Part shown: piece after piece, positions 2,516 to 36,011 of the stretch | How the letters are laid out: each line of letters opens with the position of its first letter | Position numbering within the stretch: position 1 is the first letter of the stretch | Notes under the pieces: model-generated | What the model was told of the DNA's origin: nothing | The model's input: the letters and a program-made list of their open reading frames with translations, nothing else | The model's database searches: none | Position numbers and translations under genes: made by a program | From: an uncultured Caryophanales bacterium | GTDB lineage: Bacteria > Bacillota_I > Bacilli_A > RFN20 > CAG-826 | NCBI GenBank assembly: GCA_946625055.1 | Contig: CAMOSS010000003.1 | Span: 1-37,152 of the forward strand | Direction of reading: 5' to 3' | Length of the DNA stretch: 37,152 nt

Positions 2516-5071
2516 TTAATCTAACACTATTGGGAGACAGACATAAATAATGTTATTAGTCTCATCCCTAACATAATCAAATCTAATTGATAATAAACGT
2601 TTCTTATTGTTGTTATCAACTGCATGAATTTTGATCTGCATGTTTTTGTCTTTTTTTAGCGAGTTAATAACGCTCGCAAATAATTCTTTTTCTTTCTTAG
2701 ATTTTATTCTATCTCTAAACGCGCCTTCGTTTAGTTCTTTTTCAAATTCTTCAATAGTTAAACCAAAGCCTTCAAGCTTTCTCACCATCGCTACTTCATA
2801 AACCCATTGGTTTTCAATGTTTTTAATAAAGATAACACTGGTATTTGAATACTTCTTTAATAAAGAAATCTTTTGTTCTAAGTCCACTAGTTTTGTGATG
2901 TTATGGGCCGATCCATAGAATCTATCTTTGCCTTCTTTAACGCCAAGGTAATAGAAATGCATATCATAAGCAGTTAAGATGCCACTTACCTTATAGAATC
3001 TCACCATTCCCGAAGAACCGGAGAGACGATGCTCTTTAGCTTCTTTAAACAAAGAATGCAAAACGGGGACATCTTCAGGAGGCATAACACGCTCAATATT
3101 CGCGAGTTTTTCCATGAAGTCAGGGACATCGACACTTTCATAGAATTGTTGATTGAATCTCACAATATCTGTATTTTCACCATCCCATGAATATAAGGCT
3201 ACTGCCCCAATAATGTTATTTAACATTGAGTCAGAATAAACGTTCTTATCAAGGAATTCTCTAATTCTAAATTGTTCATTAAGTTTGACAACAAAACCAC
3301 GACCATCAATCTTTTCTTCATCTTTGATGAGGTTTTCAAAATCTTGAACTGGCATTGGTCGATAGAAATGATAACCTTGAACATAACGACAACCTAATTC
3401 TTCTAAGAAGTCGCTTTGCTTTTGATTTTCAACACCTTCAACGATGATTGGAACAGCAATCATCTTCGCCATATTAACAACAGATTCAAGGATATGAATG
3501 CCTTTATCTTTATCAGCGTTTTCAATATGGAGGAATTTTGCATCTAACTTAATGGCATCAACTTCAAAATTAGAAAGCATGTTAAGTGAAGAATAACCAC
3601 TACCAAAATCATCCATTAAAACAAGGAATCCGAGTTCACGTAATTTTTTTACTAATTCTTCGATGAGAAGAGTGGTTTCAGCATATGCTGATTCAGTGAT
3701 TTCTAATTTAATTAAATTATGAGGGATATTATATTTTTCTGTTAGTTCAACAAAGTGTTTAGCAATATCCACTGTAAAGATATCCGCTCTTGAGACATTT
3801 AAGGAAATAGGGACAGCTTTATGTCCATCATCAAGCCATTTCCTTAGCCATATACAAACCTTTTCCCAAAGGTATTTATCAAGGTCGATAATAAAGCCAT
3901 ATTTTTCTAAGATTGGAATAAAGGTATCTGGAGGATTAATCTTTCCATCTTTTCTTATCCATCTCGCTAAAGATTCAGCTCCGACAACCTTACCTGTAGA
4001 AATACGACATTGAGGTTGGAGATAGAATACTATCTCATCATTTTTTAAGGCTTGCATGAAATCGTTTAAAACTCTAATCTCATTTTCAGCGACTAAACGC
4101 ATGTCTTGAGTGTAATAACAAATCCTATTTTTGATATCAGATTTTGCTTTACTAGAAGCAATAGAAGCTTTATCAAAGACATCCACTACTGGAATGTTAT
4201 TGTCAACAGGTGCCACACCAAAGGCCGGCATAAAACCAATTGATAAGCCAAAGGAAACAATGACGGATCGGATCTCTTCAAACAGTTCTTCAATATACTC
4301 TTTATTAAATTCCATCAAGATGCCAAAGTCATCTTGACCAAAGTATCCACCTAAAGCTACATGCTTATTTTCACCCTCTAAGAGAACTGCCCCGATTTGA
4401 GTTAATAAATAGTCACCAGTTTCTCTTCCATACCAATCATCAAACAATTTGAAATGCTCGATATCAAGAGCGATTAAACACCATTTTTTGTCTTTATTTT
4501 TATCGACTATCTTTTGAGCAGCATGGAAAAATTCTTTTTCTCTATATAATCCATGTGGATTATCTTTGCCTTCTTGCATGTCGATTTCTTTATAGATTTC
4601 ACCAATTTCTCTACTCTTTAAGTTTTGAATATCAAAAATATAGATTTTGAATGTTCCTTCTTCAAAACCATATTCTTTACCCGTGATACAGCATTGTTCA
4701 ACCCAACGGTAACTACCGTCTTGGAGTTTATAACGGAATTGTGCAAATATGAAATTTGGAATTTCAGAATTCTTAAGCCTCTCCATGATTGTTGAAGGGT
4801 CCATTAATTCTTTAAAGATGTCTCTATCCTCAAAATAAACAATGTGTTCATAACAATACTTAAAGAGACCCTTAAAACTAAATCCATCAATCATTGGAAT
4901 AAAATATTTTCCATCAACGTGATAGATTTGATTGAAGGTGTCGTTATTAAGGTCGACAAAAACAACTTCATCACAAGAAGATCCATCAAGCAAGTTGATT
5001 AAAGAAAGATCATTCTTGTCATTATTGATGAACATAGAATAAAACTTGTCTCTTTTTTTATAGATTGACAT
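2516..5071 (-). CDS. PAS-like / degenerate GGDEF / EAL protein, predicted c-di-GMP phosphodiesterase or sensor with a long C-terminal extension
   Basis: EAL signatures ESLARW, LNVSRADI, LEITESA, LMDDFGSGYSSL, IKLDAKFL, IVEGVE, VQGYHFYRP. The GGDEF position reads FGQDDF. Confidence 0.88.
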   Translation of the reverse strand: MSIYKKRDKFYSMFINNDKNDLSLINLLDGSSCDEVVFVDLNNDTFNQIYHVDGKYFIPMIDGFSFKGLFKYCYEHIVYFEDRDIFKELMDPSTIMERLKNSEIPNFIFAQFRYKLQDGSYRWVEQCCITGKEYGFEEGTFKIYIFDIQNLKSREIGEIYKEIDMQEGKDNPHGLYREKEFFHAAQKIVDKNKDKKWCLIALDIEHFKLFDDWYGRETGDYLLTQIGAVLLEGENKHVALGGYFGQDDFGILMEFNKEYIEELFEEIRSVIVSFGLSIGFMPAFGVAPVDNNIPVVDVFDKASIASSKAKSDIKNRICYYTQDMRLVAENEIRVLNDFMQALKNDEIVFYLQPQCRISTGKVVGAESLARWIRKDGKINPPDTFIPILEKYGFIIDLDKYLWEKVCIWLRKWLDDGHKAVPISLNVSRADIFTVDIAKHFVELTEKYNIPHNLIKLEITESAYAETTLLIEELVKKLRELGFLVLMDDFGSGYSSLNMLSNFEVDAIKLDAKFLHIENADKDKGIHILESVVNMAKMIAVPIIVEGVENQKQSDFLEELGCRYVQGYHFYRPMPVQDFENLIKDEEKIDGRGFVVKLNEQFRIREFLDKNVYSDSMLNNIIGAVALYSWDGENTDIVRFNQQFYESVDVPDFMEKLANIERVMPPEDVPVLHSLFKEAKEHRLSGSSGMVRFYKVSGILTAYDMHFYYLGVKEGKDRFYGSAHNITKLVDLEQKISLLKKYSNTSVIFIKNIENQWVYEVAMVRKLEGFGLTIEEFEKELNEGAFRDRIKSKKEKELFASVINSLKKDKNMQIKIHAVDNNNKKRLLSIRFDYVRDETNNIIYVCLPIVLD

Positions 5072-11690: not shown

Positions 11691-14162
11691 TTATTCAATG
11701 TCTTTAGCCATATCAATTAAGGCATTGATTTTGTTTTGAATAGAAGCATCGCTAACGCGATATCCATACATTGCGGTTTCACATGCATTCACTTCTAATA
11801 GTTTTGCTTGAACCACTAATGCTTGAGCGTTAAATGCTGCTTTCTTAGCAGTAATTTCTTCACTTCCTTCGGCCTTAACAAGTTCTTTAAATAAATTCAT
11901 TAACTCATCATACATGTTGTTTTGATAAGTGTTAGAAGCGTTAACTATCTTTTCTCTAGTTTCCGTATTGAGATTAAGTTTTGTTCTTAATTCAAGAGAA
12001 CCTGCTTCTTGAGAACGTCTAATTCCAAGAATTGAATTTGAATATCCATCGATACATTTGTTGAGAAGTGAGAGATTAAGGAGTTGTTCAAATAAATCTG
12101 TATCATCTTGAATTAGTTCAACATATCTCACAAAACAATCTGTGGATAATCTTGTTAATTCATTTAATTCAGTTCCCTTTGAAACAAGCATTTCTTCAAA
12201 GCTATCAAAGTAATCTGAGAGTTCACCAACGAAGTTTCTCTTTGAGTATTTTGCTGGGATAACAAGTGTTCCAACAAAGTCTTGATAGAAGGTTATAATT
12301 GATGAATATTCATCGATGAGATTAACAACCGCAGTTTTGTCATTATTCTCTTTCACACTTTCAGCGTTTAATTTGAAGGCATCAAGTCTATTTGAGAAAG
12401 CTTCTAAGAAACTATTTTGAATGTTCTTTACTGAATTATAATGGTTTTCATTTTCTTCTTTTAAACGAAGATCCCAATCTTTATATTCAATGATATCTTC
12501 TAAAGCTTCAATAACCTTATCCACTGTATCAATCGTGGAGAAATCTAAAGAATTGACTATGTCATTGACTGAATTTTTAATTTTCAATAACTCGTTTTGA
12601 ATCTTGAGTTCATCATAGCCACCTTCAAGCATTCCTTTAACAGAATCAGGTAATGATTGATATTGACTTAAGGCTTCTTCATATAAAGCAATAGAGTCTT
12701 TTGCAATTGAGATTTCATTTCTTCTAAAGCCTAAATTTGAATAGTCAATTAAGTAGTTCAATTTCGCATAGAACTTATCAAAAATTGAAGCATCATTTCT
12801 TAATCTATAGTTTCTAGCATCCACTGTCTTAAATAGGTTATTATCTTCCCTAGCATTTTCGTCGATATTAATTTGAGCATGGACACCGATTTCTTTAGCG
12901 TCTTCAGAGGCTTGACCTTTACCATAGAATTCAAAGCCGGCGATATGTGTATGTCCATCATCGCCACGGTACAAAGTAACTTTTGAACCAACATTTCCGA
13001 TGTTCACCATATCAAATAAATTAGACATAATTGTTGGAAGGCCCAACATCCCAAGAACCACTCTCATCGCTGCTTTCTTTGCGGTGTCATTAAAGGTGAA
13101 ATCAAGATTGACATAATCTTTTGAATTCTTAACATAAGATTCTTTCTTCACATCAACTCCGCCAAGAATGACGGCTAAAGTATTTCCAATCGCGGACAAA
13201 GTGGCATTAGTTTCTTCAGAAATAAGATCACCATCAGACATTTGAGAAAGTAGTCCAATGTAGTCAATCTTTTCTAATTCATTATTTTCAAAGTCTATTC
13301 TTTGAATAAGTGAGATGATAGCCTTGATTAAATCAAGAGTATTGACACTTTCTTCTTTATCTTCTAATTCTTCTTCATAGAATGTTAATGTGTCTTTAGA
13401 CACATATCCACCAGTCGAACGAATGTCTTCCCCATAATATGAGAAGAAGTTTTCATTATGTTCTTCTGAATATGTGAGAAGTTCATCATCACTCATTTCA
13501 GAAATCTTTTTCTCCAAAGCTTGGAAGTGAGCAGCAAAGGCTCTTTCTTCTCCGCTTCTATCATCATCGAGCAAAACTCCATATTCAGAATCTCTAAAGT
13601 TAGTGACAAAACTCATATAGCTAACATTGTTTCTAATCTGCTGAGCCTTATTTTCAGTTACAGTTGTTTTTAAAACATCTGTGTTAGCAATGAATTCATT
13701 ATTCTCTCTATAAACAAGAAGACCATCTCTAGCGGTATAAGCGAGTTCAAGAGGAGAGTTAAAGGTTCTACTTTCTATATAGTCTCCACCATCAAAGGAC
13801 AAAATGACGGAACCATTTCTAACTAAAACATTATCAACGACAGGAGTTGAAACTCTAACATGGCAAACTTGTTCAATATCATTAGCGTGAACAAGGATAT
13901 TTGTTTCACCCTTAGCCACCGCTGTGATATAACCTTGAGAGTTAATAGCAGCAATCTTAGGATTCATTGAATAGTAATAAATTTTACTATTCTCGTCACC
14001 ACCAGTAAGCGTGACATTAAGTTTGTAGCGATCCCCAACATTTAAAGTAACGTTGTTACTTTGTAGAATAACTGCTGTAATAGGTTCAACTTTTTTAGAT
14101 GACTTATTACATCCAGTCAACACTAGTAATGAGGAACATAGAATCAATAATGTTTTTTTCAT
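11691..14162 (-). CDS. Lipoprotein with bacterial Ig-like (Big_2) domain and long helical C-terminal region, function unknown
   Basis: MKKTLLILCSSLLVLTGCNKS lipobox; Big_2-like VTLNVGDRYKLNVTLTGG...MNPKIAAINSQGYITAVAKGETNILVHAND. SD AGAGGAC before ATG 14162 (ORF track starts 27 nt further upstream). Confidence 0.8.
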   Translation of the reverse strand: MKKTLLILCSSLLVLTGCNKSSKKVEPITAVILQSNNVTLNVGDRYKLNVTLTGGDENSKIYYYSMNPKIAAINSQGYITAVAKGETNILVHANDIEQVCHVRVSTPVVDNVLVRNGSVILSFDGGDYIESRTFNSPLELAYTARDGLLVYRENNEFIANTDVLKTTVTENKAQQIRNNVSYMSFVTNFRDSEYGVLLDDDRSGEERAFAAHFQALEKKISEMSDDELLTYSEEHNENFFSYYGEDIRSTGGYVSKDTLTFYEEELEDKEESVNTLDLIKAIISLIQRIDFENNELEKIDYIGLLSQMSDGDLISEETNATLSAIGNTLAVILGGVDVKKESYVKNSKDYVNLDFTFNDTAKKAAMRVVLGMLGLPTIMSNLFDMVNIGNVGSKVTLYRGDDGHTHIAGFEFYGKGQASEDAKEIGVHAQINIDENAREDNNLFKTVDARNYRLRNDASIFDKFYAKLNYLIDYSNLGFRRNEISIAKDSIALYEEALSQYQSLPDSVKGMLEGGYDELKIQNELLKIKNSVNDIVNSLDFSTIDTVDKVIEALEDIIEYKDWDLRLKEENENHYNSVKNIQNSFLEAFSNRLDAFKLNAESVKENNDKTAVVNLIDEYSSIITFYQDFVGTLVIPAKYSKRNFVGELSDYFDSFEEMLVSKGTELNELTRLSTDCFVRYVELIQDDTDLFEQLLNLSLLNKCIDGYSNSILGIRRSQEAGSLELRTKLNLNTETREKIVNASNTYQNNMYDELMNLFKELVKAEGSEEITAKKAAFNAQALVVQAKLLEVNACETAMYGYRVSDASIQNKINALIDMAKDIE

Positions 14163-14169
14163 AGAAAAA

Positions 14170-14187
14170 GTCCTCTTTAACAAGGAC
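14170..14187 (-). promoter_or_regulatory. Small hairpin pairing the SD of the lipoprotein gene (GTCCT...AGGAC)
   Basis: Minus strand GTCCTTGTTAAAGAGGAC: 5-bp stem (6 with a G-U) containing the AGAGGAC SD. Confidence 0.4.
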
Positions 14188-14230
14188 ATATTAGCACATC
14201 TTTATAAAAATAATTACTGCTTTTTAATTA

Positions 14231-30497: not shown

Positions 30498-33425
30498 TTA
30501 GCTAAGCTTTTCGCTCTTTGTGTTCATCGCTAATGAAGCGGTGTCATTAATAAGCGTATCGACAATTGCGATCTTATTATCTTCGGTCGCTTCTTTTTGA
30601 TGATCAGCAAGTGTTAAGTCTAAAGCAATCTTGATTGTAATACCAACTTTGATATCTAAGTTAGCCTTAAGACCTGTTAATTCATTTGTGGATAAATCAT
30701 CGTAAATCCATAAATCAACATCTTTAAGTTCTTTGGAATTTGCAAGAGCACCAACATCAGCAGAGATGAAGAAGAATTGATTATCCTTATCATATTTAAA
30801 ATTCTTCAAAATCTTTTCATAAGGAATTTGGTAATTTTCATCTTTGTTGTTTTCGCTCTTTTCCACACTGCCGGTGATTAAGTCACCTAAGGATAAGACA
30901 TCTTCAAGTAAGATGGTGAGGATGTTATCCATGAAGTAACCGGTGTCACATTTTTCAAGTAATGTGTAATTTCTACGGGTACCAAAGATCAATTTATCTT
31001 TAACTGATTCAGTACGTTTGATATAGAAGTTTCCATCAGAGTATACAAAGTATACACTTCTATTTTCTGCTGAATAGTAATTCTTATTTGGGTTAATTGC
31101 AATGCCTAATACCTTAACGATTGGGAAGTCATCAAATGAGACACCAACATCAACTTTGCCGTGATCATTTCTAATCTCAACAGTGAATGGAACTTCTTTG
31201 ATGTTATAAACTTTACCAGTGATTAAGGTAAATCCTAAGTCAACTTTAGAAGCAAACTTCCAATAGTTATATTTAGAAGAATTAAGTCCGAGTTGCAATA
31301 AGACTTTGATATCAGAGAAGTCTAAGAATTCATCATTGTTTGGATTTAATCTTTCTGATTCTTTTGAAGGATCAAATTCTTTGAGTTCAACTTTAAGGTT
31401 GACGTTTAAATCATCGAAGTTAAGATTTGAAATTTCTAATGAATGAATCGTGTGTTCATCATAAGTTAATTTGATATCAAGAGATGTTTCTTCTAATCCA
31501 ACGAGGGCCAAAGAGACTGTGAAACTGATTTCACCATCTTTAACTTGTAAGTTAGAGATAATGTGTAAGTTTGCAATCTTTTGATAATCACCATTAATGA
31601 TTTCCATGATAGGCATAACACTAGCTTGATCCATTAAAGAACCAAACAATTCATTAAAGTGTTCAGATGGTTCATCCATCACTTCTTTCACAACATCAAA
31701 GATGTCGATGAATGTTTGTGATTTGACTTTACCTTTCATTTGTTCGTTGTATGTGAATAAGATTTCATTCTTATCTTTCATATCAGCGACTAATCTATGA
31801 GAATAATTCTTTCTATCAACAATTTCAGCTTTACCATATCCGAATCCATCTTCGATATCGAATTGGAGACCACCACCAAGAGTGATATCGTTAACACCTT
31901 CTTTGGTGGAAGAAATTGTGCCATCGAATTCCACTCTGAATTGAGTGTCATCAACAAGTTCAGAAATCGCTAGGGCTAATGGGATCGCGTGCTCTAAAGC
32001 CACATATTGTTCTTTTTCAACGTTATATCTCACATAGTCTTTGAATGTGACAGTAGCAGAACCTTCATAATCATTAATACGAATGTTATTAAGTTCTAAA
32101 GATTCTAAACTTTCATTATTAAACTTAAGGGTAATGGTGAATGGAGAAACGGAATCAATACCAGCTTCACTTGGTTTAATATCCACTCCTAATTCTTCAC
32201 TTGTTAAGGTGATTTCTTGAATGGTGTTTGGTAATTTACCAAGGATTTCTAATAACTTAGCGGTATCCATGGTGCCCATTAATTTATCTAGGAGTTCTTT
32301 AATCTTTTCATTACCAATCTTATTCATTGTGAATTGAACAAGGTTAGAAACTGATTCAGTATCAATGGAGACTTTTAAGTCATGATAATGAGCATATAAA
32401 GTTTCTTCTAATAGATGAGCGTCAAAGCTATTCACTTGTTCGTCAACGGTGACATCACCAAAGATGGAGTAGGCTTTTTCATCAATGTCATAGGAGAGAT
32501 TGATAGATGTTGCGAGTAAGTTGCTCTTACTTTCAACTTCATTTTCATCTTTTGTGAATTTACTCAATTCAAGATCTAAACCAATAGTGTTTTGTCTCTT
32601 GCTTGTTAAGTTCAAGATATTGTTCACAATGTTTAATGCAGGAGCGAAGTCTTGATATTTATGAGCAATCTCAATATTTTCCATTGGAGAGACAAGATTA
32701 ATGTCTTGGACTCTATCAAGATTGACATCTAGTTTAAATAACATATCACCGTAACTAATCGTATCGGTTCTTAAACCTGTGAAGTTATATTCACTATCAG
32801 TCTTGATATAAAGTAATAAATCGTTATCTAATCCTAAAGGTTCAGATGCATTGAAGGTGAAGTAATATCCTTCTCCTTCTCTATCAGGTTCTTTCAAAGA
32901 AAGAATATAATCTTGTAAGGCATAGATATCTAAGTTTGTTAATTCCACTGGCATTTCAAAGTTCAAACCATGACTTGGAAGCATTTCGATAAAATCGAAG
33001 ACATTGTCAGTTTTTAATTTGAAATAGTTATTATTGAAATCAAAGAACACTGTGGAATCAAAATATCCAATTGAAGCATTGATATCGTTGCCGGATAAGT
33101 TCACATCGATATCACCTTCAAGTTTGATATCAGAAACGTCACTGGCGTCACCTTTTCCATCAAAGTCTAAAGCGATGTATTCACCAGATTGAAGTTTTGC
33201 TGAAACACTCGCATCGACATTAAATGTTTGAATGGATCCAAGAGAATCGAGTAATTTTTGTTGTGGGGTGTCAATATAAGGCGTTACTGTTGTTCCACCA
33301 TTATTTGATGTTGCTCCTTTATTTACGGTTTTCTTTTGGGCTTTATATTGAGAACCAAAAGCAATACCGAAGCTGGTTGAAAACATGAGTGTACAAACTA
33401 TTGCGCCTTTAAATATGTTTTTCAT
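30498..33425 (-). CDS. Large secreted protein of unknown function with about four degenerate tandem beta-rich modules
   Basis: Sec-type N-terminus MKNIFKGAIVCTLMFSTSFGIAFGS without lipobox. Repeated block order (see finding). Strong SD TAGGAGGA. Confidence 0.85.
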   Translation of the reverse strand: MKNIFKGAIVCTLMFSTSFGIAFGSQYKAQKKTVNKGATSNNGGTTVTPYIDTPQQKLLDSLGSIQTFNVDASVSAKLQSGEYIALDFDGKGDASDVSDIKLEGDIDVNLSGNDINASIGYFDSTVFFDFNNNYFKLKTDNVFDFIEMLPSHGLNFEMPVELTNLDIYALQDYILSLKEPDREGEGYYFTFNASEPLGLDNDLLLYIKTDSEYNFTGLRTDTISYGDMLFKLDVNLDRVQDINLVSPMENIEIAHKYQDFAPALNIVNNILNLTSKRQNTIGLDLELSKFTKDENEVESKSNLLATSINLSYDIDEKAYSIFGDVTVDEQVNSFDAHLLEETLYAHYHDLKVSIDTESVSNLVQFTMNKIGNEKIKELLDKLMGTMDTAKLLEILGKLPNTIQEITLTSEELGVDIKPSEAGIDSVSPFTITLKFNNESLESLELNNIRINDYEGSATVTFKDYVRYNVEKEQYVALEHAIPLALAISELVDDTQFRVEFDGTISSTKEGVNDITLGGGLQFDIEDGFGYGKAEIVDRKNYSHRLVADMKDKNEILFTYNEQMKGKVKSQTFIDIFDVVKEVMDEPSEHFNELFGSLMDQASVMPIMEIINGDYQKIANLHIISNLQVKDGEISFTVSLALVGLEETSLDIKLTYDEHTIHSLEISNLNFDDLNVNLKVELKEFDPSKESERLNPNNDEFLDFSDIKVLLQLGLNSSKYNYWKFASKVDLGFTLITGKVYNIKEVPFTVEIRNDHGKVDVGVSFDDFPIVKVLGIAINPNKNYYSAENRSVYFVYSDGNFYIKRTESVKDKLIFGTRRNYTLLEKCDTGYFMDNILTILLEDVLSLGDLITGSVEKSENNKDENYQIPYEKILKNFKYDKDNQFFFISADVGALANSKELKDVDLWIYDDLSTNELTGLKANLDIKVGITIKIALDLTLADHQKEATEDNKIAIVDTLINDTASLAMNTKSEKLS

Positions 33426-33437
33426 AAATATTTCCTC

Positions 33438-34331
33438 CTATTTTTCGTAGACAGCGTCCTCAGTTAATTCTGGGATTTTCATATCTGTCTCATAAGTGTA
33501 AGTATCAACAAGATGTCCATTTGAATTATGTTTTCCAAACATGTAGACATCATAAGACTCATCGGCAGTTGAAGTTTTAATGTTTAATTCTTTATCCAAG
33601 ACATAAGTTAATTGGATGTGATGGAATATTGGTGGCTTTGGTAGATTTGATGTCATAGTCATTTGTTTTACATATCTCACCACTGAGGTTGTAACATCAA
33701 GTTCCACGCTGACTTCATAATCACCATTCACTTCTTTAGCTGTGCCATCGGTCACTGTCTTAGAAGAGATGATATAGATTGAACCTCTGTCGAGTGTTTT
33801 ACCCCATGTGTTTTCATAATCTTCTAAGCCATAATCCTTTTTGGAATCCTCTTTCCATTTCGCACTTTCGACTCCACTTAATGAACCGGAATATGTATTC
33901 ACCGTGTCATCATTTTGATAGAATCGCCAGGCGACTTTCACAAGTGAGGATTGAGATAAACTTTCTGAGAAATAATTATTTCCATCCTTAACAAAATTCG
34001 CTCTGATATCTTGCTTAATACCAGCCGCAAGAACTTCCCCTACTGTCACTTTGTGAATATTTTGATGTTCACCAAGTTTGTTAAGTGAGATGTTGATGAG
34101 TTCATGTGGTTGGAACGTTTTGAGATAGGAAGATGGAGAGGCTTTTTGATATCTTTTCATCAAAGCCTTTTGATCATCTTCAATCCCGTCTTGGTCCACT
34201 GCTGCGTAATCAACCTTTGGAACAAAGACCTCTTGTCCAAGGATGATGCCTCCAGCGATTCCAATTCCGACGAGCAGAACTCCGAAGATGGAAGTTAAAA
34301 TGTAAAATTTCTTAGTTAGCTTTTCTTTCAT
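33438..34331 (-). CDS. Single-TM-anchored extracytoplasmic protein of unknown function
   Basis: MKEKLTKKFYILTSIFGVLLVGIGIAGGIILGQ TM, then a beta-rich domain. 12 bp upstream of the 975-aa gene. Confidence 0.8.
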   Translation of the reverse strand: MKEKLTKKFYILTSIFGVLLVGIGIAGGIILGQEVFVPKVDYAAVDQDGIEDDQKALMKRYQKASPSSYLKTFQPHELINISLNKLGEHQNIHKVTVGEVLAAGIKQDIRANFVKDGNNYFSESLSQSSLVKVAWRFYQNDDTVNTYSGSLSGVESAKWKEDSKKDYGLEDYENTWGKTLDRGSIYIISSKTVTDGTAKEVNGDYEVSVELDVTTSVVRYVKQMTMTSNLPKPPIFHHIQLTYVLDKELNIKTSTADESYDVYMFGKHNSNGHLVDTYTYETDMKIPELTEDAVYEK

Positions 34332-34423
34332 AACCGCTGACTATTTTAATTAAAATAAAGAAAAATCAACCCTATTTTTGAGTTTTTTCAAAATAGAGAA
34401 AGCGGTAAAACTCTCTTTAAAAT

Positions 34424-34442
34424 AGAATAACTATGTTATTCT
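34424..34442. promoter_or_regulatory. Inverted repeat AGAATAAC-TAT-GTTATTCT in the divergent intergenic region
   Basis: Perfect 8-bp arms, read directly. Confidence 0.5.
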
Positions 34443-34533
34443 CTTATAAAATGACAAAAAATCTAAATAAAAATGTATTCTAAAAAATTTTAAAAAATCT
34501 CAAAATTCAGGTCTAAAAAACATAAAAAAATCA

Positions 34534-34568
34534 ATGATACACCACTGAGTTAGGTATATAATATACCT
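34534..34568 (+). promoter_or_regulatory. Promoter of the FAD/CofE-like operon with 17-bp palindrome AGGTATAT-A-ATATACCT over the -10 TATAAT
   Basis: -10 TATAAT 34557-34562 inside palindrome 34552-34568; -35-like ATGATA at 17-bp spacing; SD TAGGGG before ATG 34590. Confidence 0.6.
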
Positions 34569-34589
34569 CGTTGTTAGGGGAATATTAAT

Positions 34590-36011
34590 ATGAAATATGA
34601 TGTCATTATCGTGGGAGCCGGCCCAAGTGGTTATATGTGTGCCTACGAACTTTCTAATTTGAGAAAAGACCTCAAAATTCTCCTCTTAGATAGAGGCAGA
34701 AACATCTATGAAAGAAGATGCCCAGTCCTTGAACATAAACTCGATAAATGTCCAGTTAATCAAAAAGGATTTAGAGAATGTTATCCAGCTTGCTCCATCA
34801 CTTCTGGTTTTGGAGGTGCAGGTGCATACTCTGATGGTAAATTTAATATCACCACTGAATTCGGCGGATGGTTAACAGATTACATGTCTCCAGAAGAATT
34901 AATGGGGTTAATTAATTATGTTGATGATATTAATCTTTCCTTTGGAGCGACTAAAGTTTTAACAAACCCAGATACTCCAAAAGTTAAAGAGATTGAAAAA
35001 CGCGCGATGTCTGTCGGTGTCAAACTTTTAAGAAGTAAAGTGAGACATCTAGGAACAGAAGAAAACTTAAAAATCTTAACAAAGATTTATGAACATATCA
35101 AAGCCCAAAACGTCGAGATGAGATTCTCCACAAAAGTCACTGATCTCGTCATTAAAGATAATGAAATTAAAGGTGTTATCGTTGATGGAAAAGAAACCAT
35201 CGAAGCCGACTATGTCGTTTTAGGCGTTGGTAGAGAAGGTTCTAAATGGTTATCCGAATTATTTGATAAATACGGTGTTGCCATGTCGCAAACACAAGTT
35301 GACATAGGTGTCCGTGTCGAATGTCCAAATATGGTCATGGAAGAAATCAACGAAAGCCTTTACGAAGGTAAGTTCTTATATAAGACATCTGTTGGTTCCA
35401 CAGTCAGAACTTTCTGTTCAAATCCAGGTGGACATGTCGTAGTCGAAAACTATGAAGGAGTTATGAATGTTAATGGTCACTCCTATAACGATTCAAAACT
35501 TTCTTCTCCAAATACAAACTTTGCTTTGCTCGTCTCCCACCACTTCGATGAACCATTCAAGAAACCAAATGAATACGCGATTAAAGTTTCTTCTTTAGCC
35601 AACCAGCTTTCATGTGGTTCGGTCATCGTTCAAAGATATGGCGATATCAAACTTGGAAGAAGATCCACAGTAAAGAGAATCAAAGAAGGTTTCGTTGTTC
35701 CAACACTTAAAGAAGCTGTCCCTGGTGATTTAGCTCTTGCCCTTCCATATAAAACAATGAGATCCATCATTGAAATGATTGAAGTCTTAGATAAAATCAC
35801 TCCAGGTATCGCGACAGAACACACACTTCTTTACGGTATTGAAGCCAAATATTATAGCGCTCATCCAATCATGTCTAATGAATTAGAAGTTGAAGGCATT
35901 AATCATTTATATGTCGCTGGTGATGGCGCTGGTTTAACAAGAGGTTTAGCCCAAGCTGGTGCTTGTGGTGTCTATATTGCAAGAAATATTTTGAAGAAAA
36001 GAGGTAATTAA
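34590..36011 (+). CDS. FAD-dependent dehydrogenase/oxidoreductase (COG2509-like)
   Basis: YDVIIVGAGPSGYMCAYEL dinucleotide-binding motif; CPVLEHKLDKCPVNQKGFRECYPACSITSGFGGAGAYSDGKFN; C-terminal LYVAGDGAGLTRGLAQAGACGVYIA. Confidence 0.88.
   Translation: MKYDVIIVGAGPSGYMCAYELSNLRKDLKILLLDRGRNIYERRCPVLEHKLDKCPVNQKGFRECYPACSITSGFGGAGAYSDGKFNITTEFGGWLTDYMSPEELMGLINYVDDINLSFGATKVLTNPDTPKVKEIEKRAMSVGVKLLRSKVRHLGTEENLKILTKIYEHIKAQNVEMRFSTKVTDLVIKDNEIKGVIVDGKETIEADYVVLGVGREGSKWLSELFDKYGVAMSQTQVDIGVRVECPNMVMEEINESLYEGKFLYKTSVGSTVRTFCSNPGGHVVVENYEGVMNVNGHSYNDSKLSSPNTNFALLVSHHFDEPFKKPNEYAIKVSSLANQLSCGSVIVQRYGDIKLGRRSTVKRIKEGFVVPTLKEAVPGDLALALPYKTMRSIIEMIEVLDKITPGIATEHTLLYGIEAKYYSAHPIMSNELEVEGINHLYVAGDGAGLTRGLAQAGACGVYIARNILKKRGN

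Follow-up and report, generated by a model that had tools for sequence, protein, structure and literature searches.

Four tandem modules of predicted LolA/LprG-type fold in a 975-aa protein of an uncultured Caryophanales bacterium

The window, a 37,152-nucleotide stretch of DNA from an uncultured Caryophanales bacterium, encodes a 975-aa protein, P0001, with an internal repeat. Judged by its sequence profiles, this repeat is real and comprises a single domain present in four copies of ancient origin. We lean towards explaining P0001 as a membrane-anchored string of four LolA/LprG-type modules that would be made with its upstream partner, P0002, under an XRE regulator and would bind, and perhaps relay, amphiphiles. 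Of what enters into this explanation, the repeats and how their number varies, the homologues, the order of the genes, the fusions and the operator-like site were read from sequence, and the fold was predicted; from these we infer everything said here of function, including ligand binding, relay and regulation in trans.

Gene structure and membrane attachment of P0001

P0001 is encoded by an intact open reading frame with an ATG start on the minus strand (30498-33425), and an AGGAGG ribosome-binding site (33434-33439, minus strand) lies 8 nt upstream of the start. The N-terminal segment, aa 1-24 (33354-33425, minus strand), is a candidate signal anchor or signal peptide; it contains a helix at residues 2-24 in the AlphaFold2 model and falls below the simple hydropathy threshold used for membrane segments. 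In the homologues L071, L114, L115 and L075 this segment is replaced by a lipobox, as read from their sequences. Since homologues carry an N-terminal signal anchor, in the majority, or a lipobox, in some, the chain probably stays membrane-bound, and an ordinary signal peptide may be the alternative for P0001 itself. Neither P0001 nor P0002 matched any Pfam or NCBIfam model, and genes of this type will therefore generally be annotated as hypothetical proteins. A sequence search of the PDB with both proteins returned nothing usable.

Internal repeats of P0001

The original prediction described four degenerate tandem modules over positions 30546-33233, which correspond to aa 65-960 of P0001, and staked this on an internal repeat signal in profile-profile self-comparison. 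The four segments were compared as profiles, with up to 28 homologues aligned, and such a signal was found. Module 2 (aa 250-468; 32022-32678, minus strand) matches module 3 (aa 470-690; 31356-32018, minus strand) at 99.5% with an E-value of 2e-22 and a score of 147, and module 1 (aa 50-246; 32688-33278, minus strand) matches module 2 at 97.5% (E 5e-12, score 80) and module 3 at 61% (E 8e-5, score 36). Control scores for the profiles of modules 1-3 were at most 19.5 with shuffled columns and at most 24.2 with reversed profiles. Module 4 (aa 700-950; 30576-31328, minus strand) is divergent with insertions and gave no match to the other modules in profiles built from the up to 28 homologues alone. 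When distant relatives were added, the match between a repeat profile without recognised module-4 slots and the module-4 family reached 95.6% (E 1.2e-8) and ran collinearly through 176 columns, and the reversed control gave 0.3%. An HMM of the module, derived from modules 1-3, also matched the module-4 slot of L103 (2.5e-6), L109 (2.7e-6), L112 (5.8e-6), L115 (3.4e-9), L120 (5e-6) and L121 (6.6e-7). These HMM E-values are somewhat optimistic, because borderline segments may have entered in an early round of its iterative construction; the direct profile test of modules 1-3 is free of this weakness. The four-module description is thus borne out by a profile-profile signal that links modules 1 and 2, modules 2 and 3, and the module family and module 4. 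A reading of P0001 as one continuous beta-rich fold misread as modules, which would draw on module 4 going unmatched from close homologues alone, is given practically no weight, since the controls were negative where the modules gave E-values of 2e-22, 5e-12 and 1.2e-8, and since module number varies among relatives; for modules 1-3 the profile comparisons rule out such a non-repetitive fold.

The same prediction listed ordered sequence blocks recurring four times, and all 16 of the 16 quoted blocks are present and in order: block (a) at aa 68-79, 281-291, 496-506 and 722-732; block (b) at aa 126-149, 343-367, 555-579 and 791-814; block (c) at aa 205-236, 431-464, 651-684 and 905-937; and block (d) at aa 259-270, 478-491, 702-714 and 953-965. 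Two corrections concern the structural labels attached to these blocks. Most of block (d), described as a closing segment, instead forms the helix with which the following module begins (helices 261-275, 477-491 and 706-716). Block (b), described as an aromatic strand plus helix, is placed by the model of module 4 on strands 4-5, not on strands 5-6 plus helix, but in a region of low confidence.

Predicted fold

An AlphaFold2 model of P0001 was built from 14 sequences with a mean pLDDT of 75.6 and a pTM of 0.48; it leaves the geometry between modules undefined. The model contains four units, each composed of an N-terminal helix, six strands, a helical lid and five strands. The 6+5 strand order is seen in modules 2, 3 and 4, with 11 strands in modules 2 and 3, and the weakly modelled module 1 has a helix at residues 54-64 followed by ten clear strands. 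Lid helices lie within aa 142-175, 356-401, 569-619 and 828-858. The LolA-type fold comprises 11 antiparallel strands in two sets, 1-6 and 7-11; the lid that separates the sets includes three short helices in LprG and LolB (PMC6363788). By prediction, P0001 therefore displays the 6+5 strands and the lid between strands 6 and 7 that characterise the LolA/LprG superfamily (CATH 2.50.20).

A Foldseek search of the PDB with the P0001 model matched Mycobacterium tuberculosis LprG (3mh8, 3mha and 3mh9) with a probability of 1.00 and a best TMt of 0.55-0.57, as well as LprF (4qa8) and Bacteroides LolA (4mxt), both also with a probability of 1.00. TM values to LprG are moderate, reaching 0.57 for P0001 and 0.48 for P0002, with an rmsd of 6-8 Å in the better matches. 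The three lowest Foldseek E-values belonged to TbpB, but their rmsd near 39 Å makes them meaningless, and porin and usher matches that spanned most of the chain were likewise rejected, with an rmsd above 30 Å. The earlier guess of a LolA/LppX/LprG half-barrel hence gains support by prediction, from the order of six strands, lid and five strands and from the matches to LprG, LprF and LolA. Placement of P0001 and P0002 in the LolA/LprG superfamily is a fold-level prediction rather than proven homology. The strands of P0001 are strongly amphipathic, with a mean face difference of 2.9-3.7 compared with 1.1 in non-strand segments, which is only consistent with an apolar cavity for hydrophobic ligands.

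The Pfam family LppX_LprAFG (PF07161) had no match over the gathering score in P0001 or P0002, and none in the window's genome, although the control genomes gave none either. The sole sequence hint to LppX is a PF07161 match within one module of the giant homologue L110, at 16.2 bits against a cut-off of 24 (E 0.0097). DUF6612 (PF20316), considered as a bridge family, was set aside, with just two sequences in the sample and no match in P0001, P0002 or anywhere in the window's genome.

The upstream partner P0002

P0002 (33438-34331, minus strand) is a 297-aa protein with a membrane anchor at aa 14-32 and one module of predicted LprG fold. Its AlphaFold2 model is better than that of P0001 (pLDDT 84.9, pTM 0.81) and shows six or seven strands, a lid (helix 169-176) and five strands. 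The six best Foldseek matches in the PDB were all LprG, followed by Staphylococcus aureus SAOUHSC_02783, RseB and others. P0002 is thus predicted to be a single module of the same fold as the modules of P0001. Descent of P0002 from P0001 modules was rejected, as there is no detectable sequence similarity between them, and for this reason only a similarity of fold is claimed. In 13 of 13 loci from named genomes, the gene immediately upstream of the P0001 homologue encodes a P0002 homologue. P0002 homologues also occur without a neighbouring P0001 homologue, in L069, L070, L067, L068, L077 and L078.

XRE regulator and operator-like site

A divergent XRE gene adjoins the P0002 homologue in all 12 of the 12 loci with upstream sequence; the remaining one of the 13 loci, L022, ends at a contig end. 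The XRE products possess three to five hydrophobic segments, mostly four, and an HTH_3 domain, which in the protein of L024 scores 67 bits against a cut-off of 23. The palindrome TCTC-N7-GAGA is present in 10 of 18 intergenic promoter regions, whereas the best four-base palindrome in shuffled sequences reached at most 6. A weight matrix was derived from those ten sites, all from other genomes and none from the window. The best site in the window is the palindromic operator-like sequence AACTCTCTTTAAAATAGAATA (34409-34429), which lies 78 bases before the P0002 start and scores 16.3 bits, compared with 12.8 bits for the next; no other site reaches 14 bits in the 142 kb of mixed sequence scanned. 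The loci L073, L118, L119 and L113 had no part in building the matrix, and three of the four share one genus and so are not mutually independent; in each of them the matrix gave a single hit, just upstream of the P0002 homologue. TCTC-N7-GAGA is thus the probable site of action of the XRE regulator.

In the window, the interval 34332-34589 retains the operator-like site, but the conserved divergent XRE gene is absent and a gene for an FAD-dependent oxidoreductase (34590-36011) is in its place. A regulator gene was likewise not seen in the flanking stretch of L073, L118 and L119 that was searched, and the giant homologues described below have neither an XRE gene nor an operator beside them. Another contig of the window's genome (85% complete) carries an XRE gene, L089, whose product is 37% identical with about four helices; it could be the regulator of the window, but has no operator near its gene. 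Regulation in the window would act in trans.

Relatives, module number and fusions

Besides P0001 itself, 20 homologues were found in 94 relatives at the phmmer level. The genomes of the 13 loci are named as uncultured Bacilli, Erysipelotrichales or Erysipelotrichaceae, with one Eubacteriales and one uncultured bacterium, and some of the names refer to rumen or reindeer samples. Homologues of 584 aa have two detected modules, and homologues of about 950-1,240 aa have four, the longer proteins having longer modules; those of 1,208-1,241 aa, considered as five-module proteins, are of this four-module kind. Giants of 1,700-2,800 aa begin with one P0002-type module followed by six to ten repeat modules, with the module-4 type last in most, although these counts are approximate, as single modules fall under the threshold. 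P0002 and P0001 are fused in one chain in L086, L087, L103-L105 and L107-L112, and these natural fusions are the best evidence that the two work as one chain. Two genomes, G018 and G338, have two P0001-type genes plus a regulator in a row (L076/L088 and L113). In L113:2944-11312, L076 and L088, the P0002 homologue, the two P0001 homologues and the XRE gene all point in the same direction.

Distribution and cell envelope

The P0001 profile matched 33 of 296 genomes of the class and the P0002 profile 51 of 296; the wider 'phylum' sample, among the members listed, belongs to the same class throughout. The penicillin-binding transpeptidase PF00905 was not found in the window's genome (85% complete). 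It is present in 22 of 95 genomes, the window's own included, but in only 1 of 21 phmmer-level P0001 carriers (Fisher p 0.037), and in 2 of 28 when HMM-level carriers are counted too (p 0.017). Because shared ancestry inflates the test and one giant occurs in a PF00905-bearing genome (G081), this association is read only as indicating that the four-module form lives mostly in lineages without PF00905. Most relatives of the same family also lack PF00905. Peptidoglycan deficiency has been predicted for families of the related uncultured order RFN20 (PMC10868615), in which we would place the window, and the P0001 hosts are taken to be mostly wall-deficient and monoderm. Elsewhere in the window, positions 2516-5071 encode a protein of 851 aa whose EAL and GGDEF domains point to cyclic-di-GMP turnover, although the genome sequence amounts to only about 0.93 Mb, and positions 11691-14189 encode an 832-aa lipoprotein-like protein in which Big_2, over aa 37-104, is the sole recognised domain.

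Possible functions

In the explanation that we favour, P0001 and P0002 would be produced together under a membrane-embedded XRE regulator at TCTC-N7-GAGA. Each module would hold one amphiphile, such as a lipid, a bile acid or an acyl chain, in the curved sheet beneath its helical lid, and the module chain of a mostly wall-deficient cell would bind amphiphiles and perhaps relay them between the cell's environment and its cytoplasmic membrane. A unifying feature of the superfamily is the binding of hydrophobic ligands in the curved sheet, and many characterised members bind lipids or lipoproteins, although VioE uses the same fold without lipid binding (PMC6363788). An amphiphile-binding chain is favoured because the strands are two-faced, members of the fold bind lipids, LprG moves triacylglyceride between vesicles (PMC4709180) and the MucB cavity senses lipid (PMC7400510); the scaffold and sensor roles considered below are nonetheless real rivals. 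Relay would need a partner transporter or partner membrane, and no such transporter is encoded beside the P0002-P0001 pair. A fuller version, in which tandem half-barrels on the surface of wall-deficient Bacilli pass amphiphiles along a single polypeptide or store them there, are switched on by the membrane XRE protein and have grown through fusion and duplication to about ten modules, is put forward only tentatively.

It is rather unlikely that the half-barrel instead serves as a structural repeat, in a scaffold or adhesin that spaces a tip from the membrane and has no role in ligand binding. Such a role would suit the freely varying module number and the giants L110:2-8392 and L109:3721-11001 (2,427-2,797 aa), which run past the last, module-4-type module into LRR_5 regions, with an additional Flg_new match in L109; these repeats are typical of surface proteins, and of these matches only that of LRR_5 in L110 exceeds the cut-off. 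However, the standard P0001 stops just past module 4 without a tip domain, and every module keeps its amphipathic strands and its helical lid segment.

We consider unlikely a sensor in which P0002 and P0001 would inform the four-helix XRE regulator of amphiphiles or of stress on the membrane, by analogy with RseB/MucB, which have the same fold and whose lipid binding gates a signalling protein in the membrane. The presence of RseB among the structural matches of P0002, the lipid sensing reported for MucB (PMC7400510), the divergent XRE gene with its roughly four membrane helices and the occurrence of an XRE gene with a P0002 homologue but no adjoining P0001 homologue in L069 and L070 are all in keeping with this role, yet a chain of 4-10 modules exceeds the needs of a sensor, the giants have no neighbouring XRE gene or operator, and in the window no regulator gene adjoins the pair. 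A bridge across two membranes, comparable to LetB/PqiB or TamB, resembles P0001 in repeat architecture and length by general analogy only, and is highly improbable in these Bacilli, where an outer membrane is not expected.

Comparison with known systems

The mycobacterial proteins LprG, LppX and LprF (PF07161) share the predicted strand and lid layout, give the best specific Foldseek match of both P0001 and P0002, and are likewise exported and membrane-anchored. They are single domains, however, whereas P0001 has four in tandem, no MFS partner gene is adjacent to P0001, and its hosts are presumed to be monoderm and mostly wall-deficient. LolA and LolB belong to the fold superfamily predicted for P0001 but are single-domain periplasmic carriers of diderms without a sequence match to P0001. 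RseB/MucB link a LolA-type domain to the control, at the membrane, of gene expression, but act on an anti-sigma factor, whereas the putative partner encoded next to the P0001/P0002 homologues is an XRE protein with membrane helices. SAOUHSC_02783 of S. aureus (4egd) is also a Bacilli protein and matched with a Foldseek probability of 1.00, but at a TMt of just about 0.4; we take it to be a Csa1A-type tandem lipoprotein. Proteins of the Csa1A type occur as arrays of single-domain genes, not as one chain. LetB and PqiB are tandem MCE proteins that form a chain of lipid-handling modules spanning two membranes; they share with P0001 the idea of a chain of modules and differ in their unrelated fold and in the two membranes spanned.

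In the known carriers with the LolA/LprG fold, a single domain shuttles one ligand. A search of the openly accessible literature yielded no account of LolA-type domains in tandem, and strings of lipid-carrier-like domains appear to be undescribed. If the favoured explanation is true, four to ten carriers in one polypeptide with their own regulator would represent an unrecognised form of amphiphile handling, by a chain found mainly in gut bacteria that apparently lack the usual cell wall.
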